Part shown: positions 25,978 through 27,847 of the stretch, piece by piece
How the letters are laid out: the number at the start of each line of letters is the position of its first letter
Position numbering within the stretch: position 1 is the stretch's first letter
IMG/VR virus record: IMGVR_UViG_3300020442_000341
Location: 1 to 27,847 of that record
Source: a virus
DNA length: 27,847 nucleotides
Direction: 5' to 3' (one strand)
Program-made: the position numbers and the translations under genes
The notes under the pieces: generated by a model
Seen by the model: only the letters and a program-made list of their open reading frames with translations
Database searches by the model: none
Told to the model about the DNA's origin: nothing

Positions 25978-27624
25978 TTATCTCCTTATCCCCAATGTTA
26001 ATTCCTTTGCCCTACCGCCAGGTGCAATGACATCAAATGCGGGTATTCTATCATCTGGGCCATCAGGTGGTGTAACATTATCTATTGATGGAGCTGGTGG
26101 AACTCCTCCAAGACCTTTAAGTGCTTTAAGTGCTTTTGATACTGGTGGTGTAACTCCAGATTTTTTAATTTGATTTGCTGCAAATTTTATAAGACGAGCC
26201 TGTGGTGTCTTAGCAATTAAACCTCCAACTTTCTTGACTAAACCACCCATAAAGTAATTCTGTACAGGAACTTGCCCACCACCTGCGTATGACATATTGT
26301 TTGTCATGCCACCCATCTTCAACCCACCCATCTTCATCATGGTTCCGACAGTTGAAGTTTTCATTTTCTTCTTCGCAGGTTTAGCCTTTGGTTGTTGTGA
26401 AGGTTTACCAACACCACCAGCAGCAGCATTCATTCCATATAAAGTATCAGCACCAACTTGATTTACTGCCTCCTTGGTCAACACAAATTCACCAGGTGTC
26501 AACATCGCAGGAACAGTGTCTGTGTTTCCTTGGCCAGGAACCTCTCCACCTTGATTAAATTGTTGGGGTTCTTGAACGCTTGGTTTTTCTCCTGCACCAG
26601 TGGTGTCTAATTTTTCTTCAGTCTCTGGTGGTGGTGGATCCTCTCCTCCCTGTTCATCAAGTTTTACATTCGTATCACTTTTTTCTAAATCTTTTTCATT
26701 CTTTGCAATCTCCTCGTCTACTTGTTTACCAAATCCAAATAACATTTTGACAGTATCAATTATCTTAGGAAGAAATCCTACTGCTAGTGCTACTACAGCT
26801 ATCACTAAAGGTATGCCACTAAGGAAGGGTATGAGAGCAGCAACGATAGCAGGCCACCAATCTTTCAGGAACCTGAATATGGAAGTTATCTTTGATTTAT
26901 TTTTAGAGTCACCAAACCAATCAAGTATCTTCATCAATCCTGCACCGAGTATGAATAACTTTATGAAATTAAATATCGATTCAAAAATTCCTTTTGCTGG
27001 TTCTAAAACTTTTCCAAATGCACCAGCAACTTTATCATACATTTTCTTCCCACCTTCTAAAAGGTTTTCTTTCATAGTTCTTTTCTTTTTCTCTCGTGCT
27101 TCTCTAGTATCATCGATTTTTTCTTTTTCAATAGACTCTTGACTTGCGACAATACCTTTGATGATGTTTACATCACCTGCGATCTTTGTTAATACTGATG
27201 ACATATCTCTACCACCATCAGCCTCTGCTGGAGGTAGTGTAGCAGGTGCAGAGCCTGGTGATATAAAATTCATCGCATCTTTTTTCTTCTTCGCCTTTCT
27301 ATCTGCTATTGCTTTATCTTTCGCATCTATCTCTGCCTGTATTTGCTCTAATGACTTGGCATCTTTTCTTCTCTTTCTTGTTGTCTTTAATTTACCAGTT
27401 GTATCTTTTTCTACTTCTCTTTGAGATCTTAAATTTTTTGTTGCAATCTGTAGTTGTATTAATCGAGGATCTTTTGGATCTTTTATTTGAAGTGTATTGA
27501 AACTTTCTTTTAACGCACGAATTTGACCCGTGTAAGATTCAAGATCAACGGGTTCGTATCCAAAGTCATTAATAAGCAGTTGCTTAGTTTCTTTATCTAT
27601 AGTAGCATTTAGACGCTTAGCCAT
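25978..27624 (-). CDS. Tape-measure/tail-length protein 1, 548 aa
   Basis: Residues 1-120 and 165-200 are highly charged helices; residues 217-236 (IFNFIKLFILGAGLMKILDW) and about 257-295 are hydrophobic. Residues about 358-400 hold GGEVPGQGNTDTVPAML followed by TPGEFVLTKEAVNQVG, a segment common near the end of tape-measure and tail-associated phage proteins. The gene lies directly after the tail-assembly chaperone, the standard place for the tape-measure gene in tailed phages, and overlaps it by 8 bases (ATGGCTAA). Length is close to T4 gp29 (590). The residues after 400 are Gly/Met/Lys-rich and contain PPVSKALKALKGLGG. The related protein encoded next raises the question of which one sets tail length. 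Confidence 0.72.
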   Translation of the reverse strand: MAKRLNATIDKETKQLLINDFGYEPVDLESYTGQIRALKESFNTLQIKDPKDPRLIQLQIATKNLRSQREVEKDTTGKLKTTRKRRKDAKSLEQIQAEIDAKDKAIADRKAKKKKDAMNFISPGSAPATLPPAEADGGRDMSSVLTKIAGDVNIIKGIVASQESIEKEKIDDTREAREKKKRTMKENLLEGGKKMYDKVAGAFGKVLEPAKGIFESIFNFIKLFILGAGLMKILDWFGDSKNKSKITSIFRFLKDWWPAIVAALIPFLSGIPLVIAVVALAVGFLPKIIDTVKMLFGFGKQVDEEIAKNEKDLEKSDTNVKLDEQGGEDPPPPETEEKLDTTGAGEKPSVQEPQQFNQGGEVPGQGNTDTVPAMLTPGEFVLTKEAVNQVGADTLYGMNAAAGGVGKPSQQPKAKPAKKKMKTSTVGTMMKMGGLKMGGMTNNMSYAGGGQVPVQNYFMGGLVKKVGGLIAKTPQARLIKFAANQIKKSGVTPPVSKALKALKGLGGVPPAPSIDNVTPPDGPDDRIPAFDVIAPGGRAKELTLGIRR

Positions 27625-27805
27625 TCTTTGATTGCTGTCGTTTAAGTTCCTCTTCTTCGAGATGCTGTTTTAGTAATCCAACATAGATGTCTCGTTCCCA
27701 AGGCATCATGTTTTCAATCTCAGTTAATGAGTATTTATGGTATTGCATCAACGAAAAGTTTAACTTGTAGTAGCTAGCAAGATCCATATGGATCATTGCT
27801 ACCCG
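27617..27805 (-). CDS. Tail-assembly chaperone, -1 frame extension (partial system)
   Basis: This 62-residue segment (RVAMIHMDLASYYKLNFSLM, then YSLTEIENMMPWERDIYVGL) ends at TAA 27617-27619, overlapping the start of tape-measure gene 1. The helical PWERDIY-x-GLL pattern resembles the T domain of G/GT-type tape-measure chaperones and gp26/gp51-type hub assembly proteins. The zero-frame protein ends at 27799; a slip at 27805-27811 would join the two frames. An independent start at the ATG 27796 is possible but has no ribosome binding site. The expected role is to coat the tape measure before the tail tube polymerises. Confidence 0.7.
   Translation of the reverse strand, partial: RVAMIHMDLASYYKLNFSLMQYHKYSLTEIENMMPWERDIYVGLLKQHLEEEELKRQQSKNG
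27775..27801 (-). other. Hairpin 3 bases after the slippery heptamer
   Basis: On the minus strand TAGCAA (27801-27796) pairs with TTGCTA (27780-27775) and GATCC (27794-27790) pairs with GGATC (27785-27781). There is one bulged T and a 4-base loop, giving 11 base pairs. It is well placed to act as a frameshift stimulator, and it also covers the possible independent ATG at 27796. Confidence 0.65.
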
Positions 27806-27847
27806 AAAAAAGACGCTAAACCCTCAAGCACAACTTCACTTTCGACC
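27799..27847 (-). CDS. Tail-assembly chaperone, zero-frame C-terminus (partial, right edge)
   Basis: The last 15 codons of a gene that enters from the right edge: VESEVVLEGLASFFG, stop TAG at 27799-27801. Too little is visible to assign a family by itself. It is read as the G-type chaperone because of the slippery site two codons before its stop and the extension frame that runs directly into the tape-measure gene. Confidence 0.55.
   Translation of the reverse strand, partial: VESEVVLEGLASFFG
27805..27811 (-). other. Candidate -1 programmed frameshift site (TTTTTTC)
   Basis: In the zero frame the minus strand reads TCT TTT TTC GGG TAG, so the heptamer T-TTT-TTC has the X-XXY-YYZ form. After a -1 slip the tRNAs re-pair on TTT TTT and translation continues CGG GTA GCA ATG through 62 codons. 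The stop follows one codon later in the zero frame. A hairpin begins 3 bases downstream. Confidence 0.7.

Follow-up and report, generated by a model that had tools for sequence, protein, structure and literature searches.

The DNA analysed here, called the window throughout, is a 27.8-kb record (IMGVR_UViG_3300020442_000341) of a cyanophage, a virus of marine cyanobacteria, with its tail genes on the minus strand. The right edge of the window holds the final 15 codons and the stop codon of gene 26; the remainder of this gene lies beyond the edge and its identity is therefore drawn from relatives. Read on the minus strand, the zero frame at this edge runs ...CTT GAG GGT TTA GCG TCT TTT TTC GGG TAG. 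The features of the locus are:

27799..27846, minus strand: 3' end of gene 26 (last 15 codons plus TAG), encoding the putative short chaperone TAC-N; PF12322 in close relatives
27822..27825, minus strand: GAGG, a Shine-Dalgarno (SD)-like element ending 10 nt upstream of the heptamer, with the same spacing in relatives
27805..27811, minus strand: candidate slippery heptamer T TTT TTC, in frame and conserved in relatives
27799..27801, minus strand: zero-frame stop codon TAG, one sense codon past the heptamer
27775..27801, minus strand: hairpin of 11 bp, 3 nt past the heptamer, a putative 3' stimulator on the basis of folding and of a structure excess in relatives
27617..27811, minus strand: -1 frame from slip site to stop, the putative C-terminal extension TAC-C, matching phrog_634 and the C-terminus of phrog_150
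25978..27624, minus strand: next open reading frame, 548 aa, a putative tape measure with weak matches to tape-measure PHROGs

A first-pass annotation of the bare sequence had singled out the heptamer, the stop, the hairpin and the open -1 frame; all are present, and its description is correct in every detail that can be checked. The T-TTT-TTC stands in the zero frame at 27811-27805, one sense codon ahead of the TAG, and the 11-bp hairpin follows at 27801-27775 after a spacer of three bases, GGG. Read from the heptamer, the -1 frame translates as FFRVAMIHMDLASYYKLNFSLMQYHKYSLTEIENMMPWERDIYVGLLKQHLEEEELKRQQSKNG: this amounts to 64 codons, or the 62 originally reported when those past the two phenylalanines (FF) are counted. 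The frame terminates in PWERDIYVGLLKQHLEEEELKRQQSKNG, with its stop codon at 27619-27617, and overlaps the gene downstream, as had been proposed, by 8 nt, the ATG of the next open reading frame being at 27624. The tape-measure label of that frame derives from its position and the weak PHROG matches, and no Pfam match was found for it.

Relatives were gathered from IMG/VR, by single-sequence searches, and from GenBank phages, giving 266 loci with 215 distinct junctions. The junctions were read independently of the heptamer: the upstream gene was located with a hidden Markov model built without the last ten residues and its end was then read. An in-frame heptamer of six T and any following base occurs at the end of gene 26 in 264 of the 266 loci, and TTTTTTC lies exactly one sense codon ahead of the stop in 253, in a sample that leans towards loci keeping FF, since part of the searching took the FF of the -1 frame as its starting point. 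All 266 have a -1 frame without a stop for 50 codons or more, so that two of the elements whose conservation the first-pass annotation had put forward as a check, the heptamer and the open frame, are kept across the relatives. Elsewhere in the gene-26 open reading frames of these relatives, in-frame TTTTTTC is absent from all 18,635 other codon positions, and in the window it is found a single time in 8,834 codons (minus-strand open reading frames of at least 100 codons). Such rarity, together with the recurrence at the same exact place in 253 loci, indicates that the heptamer is not there by chance. At two loci (L223 and L254) the zero-frame stop is 8 codons past the heptamer, not one, which implies that a stop adjoining the slip site is not strictly required. 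The two loci lacking the T6 heptamer belong to an outgroup, Vibrio phage D532 and Escherichia phage CBA120, which have ACTTTTC and GATTTTC in its place; both have an open -1 frame and a related extension, and CBA120 has no ATG nearby. This Ackermannviridae-like branch may use another slip site or another mechanism.

The choice of codons is equally rigid. Across 203 distinct junctions the first phenylalanine codon is always TTT and the second always TTC, compared with 146 and 57 expected from the codon usage of the same genes, and the preceding base is T in every case. These junctions were chosen for TTTTTTC, a selection that dropped only about a dozen loci; in a first set, chosen by the amino acids FFR alone, the pair is TTT TTC in 79 of 79. 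Where FF occurs elsewhere in the same open reading frames, it is written TTT TTC in just 8 of 242 cases. On these sequence counts, the codon choice at the slip site is forced. No formal probability is attached, because the loci are related and the counts are not independent; the codon contrast, by comparison, is internal to the same genes. A conceivable explanation is that the terminal FF of gene 26 is kept just for the function of the short protein and that the overlap of frames is coincidental. T4 gp26 does end in GLKEFF without a downstream extension, in keeping with such a role. A constraint on amino acids, however, cannot account for the invariance of TTT TTC or of the T that precedes it, and T4 gp26, freed of the extension, keeps FF and encodes it as TTC TTT. 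T4-type phages thus provide a natural control, since without a downstream extension the phenylalanine codons are free, and the probability of this explanation appears vanishingly small. A further bias in codon choice concerns the codon GCG at 27814-27816, near the end of gene 26: in relatives GCG stands there in 46 cases compared with 8 expected, and the third base is seldom T, though the -1 frame is untranslated at this point.

Upstream of the heptamer, GAGG is found at a spacing of exactly 10 nt in 131 of 213 distinct junctions, 70 of which have GGAGG. Measured in 22-nt windows within the same genes, GAGG is present in 64% at the site against 6% elsewhere and GGAGG in 33% against 0.44%. The bias extends to the glutamate codon that precedes glycine, where the ratio of GAG to GAA is 125:46 at the site and 22:92 elsewhere. 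Few phages other than cyanophages have the element, and about a third of junctions lack it. SD-like sequences are known to stimulate -1 frameshifting from a distance of 9-14 nt, dnaX being the example named (PMC5009743), and the GAGG in the window probably stimulates the slip in the same manner. Its sequence combines the features of dnaX-type dual stimulation, namely a GAGG at 10 nt, within the 9-14 range, and a downstream hairpin. The Escherichia coli dnaX cassette likewise consists of an upstream SD-like element, a slippery heptamer and an 11-bp downstream stem-loop. Its heptamer, however, is A AAA AAG, the gene and its purpose are different, and slippage in dnaX truncates the product, whereas here it would extend it.

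The spacing of the GAGG also bears on the possibility of transcriptional slippage, in which the T run would give rise to mRNAs with a base more or fewer that are then read normally. The site is indeed a run of six T, and of seven in a few relatives. Nevertheless, the bacterial cases described in PMC5009743 involve runs of nine A or T, the run here is fixed at exactly TTTTTTC with no lengthening, and an SD-like element at 10 nt is a stimulator of ribosomal events. Transcriptional slippage is, on this evidence, extremely unlikely.

Downstream of the heptamer, the hairpin TAGCAA(T)GATCC-ATAT-GGATC-TTGCTA comprises 11 pairs and one bulged base, and the stop codon forms part of its stem. When the 50 nt past the heptamer are folded as RNA, the energy is -16.9 kcal/mol (z = -4.27), a value equalled by none of 200 shuffled sequences. 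The 3-nt spacer is short. As regards conservation, also proposed as a check, the outcome is divided: the relatives do not share this particular stem, as 43% of cells are paired compared with 26–37% when the partner is slid, and the window's own hairpin was rejected as a common structure on this ground. An excess of structure is, by contrast, shared, and the folding z across relatives is lowest, -1.78, in the 50 nt directly past the heptamer, other windows ranging from -1.1 to 0.2. Different lineages have different stems at this position. The simplest reading of these patterns is that a hairpin is useful while its sequence changes over time, with the coding frame setting part of the limits, and the hairpin just past the heptamer probably stimulates the slip. 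A second, weaker dip in z (-0.90) is seen in relatives about 90 nt past the heptamer, within the -1 frame.

The -1 frame was first described as a C-terminal extension that is annotated as a gene of its own, and many GenBank records do give it as a separate coding sequence, named gp51 and described as 'baseplate hub assembly catalyst'. In S-SSM4 and ACG-2014d (L086 and L104) no gp51 is annotated in GenBank, and in S-RIM12 and Syn19 (L087 and L102) the entry is a 46-codon remnant beginning at an internal ATG. The principal alternative takes these records at face value: gp51 would be an independent gene, started at the ATG at 27796 or 27787 by reinitiation past the stop of gene 26. In the window an ATG follows the TAG by 2 nt, and the same codon is ATG in 84 of 215 loci. 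The first-pass annotation had pointed to the lack of a ribosome binding site for the ATG of the second frame. This lack is real, and yet it is uninformative as evidence and no obstacle to an independent start, since 133 of 214 starts of gene 26 are likewise without an SD-like sequence. A stronger argument is that at 99 of 215 loci the -1 frame has no ATG within its first 12 codons, the earliest one being at codon 12 or later. About 70 of the 215 have no ATG, GTG or TTG ahead of codon 20, and an independent start in these would lose the conserved block from L11 to F19. That this block is under coding selection is evident from 97 loci that have no ATG in the -1 frame before codon 20: in codons 4–19, which lie past the zero-frame stop and ahead of any ATG, substitutions per site are 0.29, 0.22 and 0.53 at codon positions 1, 2 and 3. 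This bias implies that the -1 frame is translated from further upstream, and an independent start fails because it would delete a conserved, coding-selected block. No relative examined has a stop codon in the stretch from the heptamer to the downstream ATG, an interruption that had been named in advance as evidence against a fusion. Nor does the GAGG serve as the initiation signal for the downstream ATG, as a distance of about 25 nt is too far. An independent gene also leaves the invariant T TTT TTC and the synonymous choices unexplained, and the annotation in some records is a 46-aa remnant or missing altogether. Expression of gp51 as a gene in its own right is, on balance, very unlikely, and the reading as an extension is retained here.

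The protein families on the two sides of the junction are related to those of T4. In two relatives, locus L003 and phage S-SM2, the zero-frame protein belongs to PF12322 (T4_baseplate, the T4 gp26/gp51 family) with scores of 255.6 and 263 bits against a curated cut-off of 24.5 bits. T4 gp26 consists of the PF12322 domain alone and T4 gp51 of the same domain followed by a C-terminal extension, which the -1 frame matches (phrog_150 positions 231–281; phrog_634). Alignment of the -1 frame (A1) by hhalign to the single T4 gp51 sequence fell in the right place with a probability of only 11%; the PHROG profiles are decisive for this match between sequences. The structure predicted for TAC-N of relative L003 (mean pLDDT 86; matched region residues 1–96) has as its three best VIA-align matches HK97 gp13 (2ob9, Z 8.0), 3fgx (Z 7.7) and YqbN (3klu, Z 7.3), with an rmsd of 4.1–4.3 Å over 84–86 residues, a Z of about 8 being borderline by itself. 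Foldseek against the PDB gave weak matches, the HK97 chaperone ranking second with an E of 0.8, and a sequence search of the PDB with the TAC-N profile retrieved nothing relevant. HK97 gp13, 3fgx and YqbN are described together as tail-assembly chaperones (PMC9603447). As these are the three best structural matches, the modelled short protein most likely has a tail-assembly-chaperone fold.

Taken together, the locus very probably harbours a programmed -1 ribosomal frameshift of the lambda G/GT type in a tail-assembly-chaperone gene. That cyanophages use the G/GT mechanism had been suggested at the outset and is supported by the conservation of site, frame and codon choice, by the homology of the parts and by the chaperone fold. 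From these we infer the slippage and its rate, the action of the stimulators and the role in assembly as follows. The short chaperone, TAC-N, would come from the majority of ribosomes, which read gene 26 as far as the TAG. On U UUU UUC, with both the P and the A site occupied by tRNA-Phe, a minority would slip back by one base onto UUU UUU, probably stimulated by the GAGG 10 nt upstream and the hairpin just downstream, and would read 62 further codons to make the long form, TAC-NC. Both forms would coat the tape-measure protein, as in lambda G/GT, and the extension would recruit tail-tube subunits. In lambda gpG/gpGT the heptamer is G GGA AAG; the present system differs in its T TTT TTC, a PF12322 N domain of about 239 aa, an extension of about 64 aa and the SD-like element upstream. 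It resembles lambda gpG/gpGT and its counterparts in other long-tailed phages (Xu et al. 2004; PMC5009743) in that a short chaperone acquires a -1 C-terminal extension, by a putative slip near the end of the first open reading frame directly upstream of the putative tape-measure gene, and in the chaperone fold of the first domain. Pakpunavirus/Vandenendeviridae and Andersonviridae offer a further parallel, with a poly-T slip site, an invariant GTTTTT, and an uninterrupted -1 frame at a myovirus chaperone locus (PMC12846349); those families and that slip sequence are different, and the available part of the source mentions no SD-like element.

In T4 the PF12322 domain and the C-terminal extension are the same and a short and a long form also exist, but each has a gene of its own; the two genes are paralogous and divergently transcribed, with gp51 as the long form, whereas here there would be a single gene with a frameshift. 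The first-pass annotation had the T4 counterparts as separate genes, which is correct as to their number and incomplete in that gp26 and gp51 are paralogues without a frameshift site. Two PF12322 genes, 26 and 51, are present in each of T4, Acinetobacter phage 133, a Krischvirus, a Bragavirus and a Roskildevirus; these five T4-type phages have neither a heptamer at the end of gp26 nor a -1 extension past it. A single PF12322 gene is found in each of 5 large virus records and 18 named phages, the window, as a fragment, standing outside this count; every heptamer-bearing phage among those counted has just one. The phages that have the heptamer include cyanophages, Sinorhizobium phages phiM7 and phiM9, Rhizobium phage RHph_I9 and Agrobacterium phage OLIVR6; Pseudomonas phage Astolliot and Stenotrophomonas phage Moby also have it, as do, within T4's own family, Vibrio phage ValKK3 and Aeromonas phage 65.2. 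In an unrooted tree a branch with 99/97 support has genes 26 and 51 both on the same side, consistent with the origin of the pair by one duplication. As the tree is unrooted, the direction of the change rests on the taxonomic spread. One scenario, whose merits we regard as evenly balanced, is that the one-gene frameshift is ancestral in the T4 superfamily and would have been kept in cyanophages and in rhizobial, Pseudomonas/Stenotrophomonas and KVP40-like phages. The cyanophages would have a dnaX-style cassette in which T TTT TTC is preceded at 10 nt by the SD-like element and followed by hairpins that differ between lineages and turn over in place. T4 and its close kin would have switched to two genes by gene duplication and in-frame fusion, the ratio of short to long form then being set by the two genes.

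T4-like chaperones are the subject of Vladimirov, Gautam and Davidson 2022 (Virology 566:9-15), known here through PMC10885494 and the Adele paper, PMC12846349. The PRFect paper (PMC10885494) cites that work for some T4-like phages having two genes, one short and one long and fused, with no frameshifting, and the core claim may already be in print there. A literature search, outside which Vladimirov et al. 2022 fell, found no paper describing the frameshift in cyanophages. The apparently new points are the fixed spacing of the SD-like element, the turnover of the hairpin, the breadth of the survey and the mutual exclusivity of the one-gene and two-gene arrangements.

According to a 2016 review (PMC5009743), G-T frameshifting is widely conserved in long-tailed phages 'except T4'. 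The frameshift site occurs in nearly every T4-like lineage sampled, and the two genes of T4 look like a derived substitute. Marine cyanophages are among the most abundant viruses, and the annotation of their 'gp51' is often wrong: it is entered as a gene of its own, entered as a truncated gene, or left out. A single gene that yields two products is probably the right reading, and proteomes are to be searched for the extension as part of a fusion. Slippage and duplication represent two ways to fix the same protein ratio, and these phages offer a clean evolutionary comparison between them.
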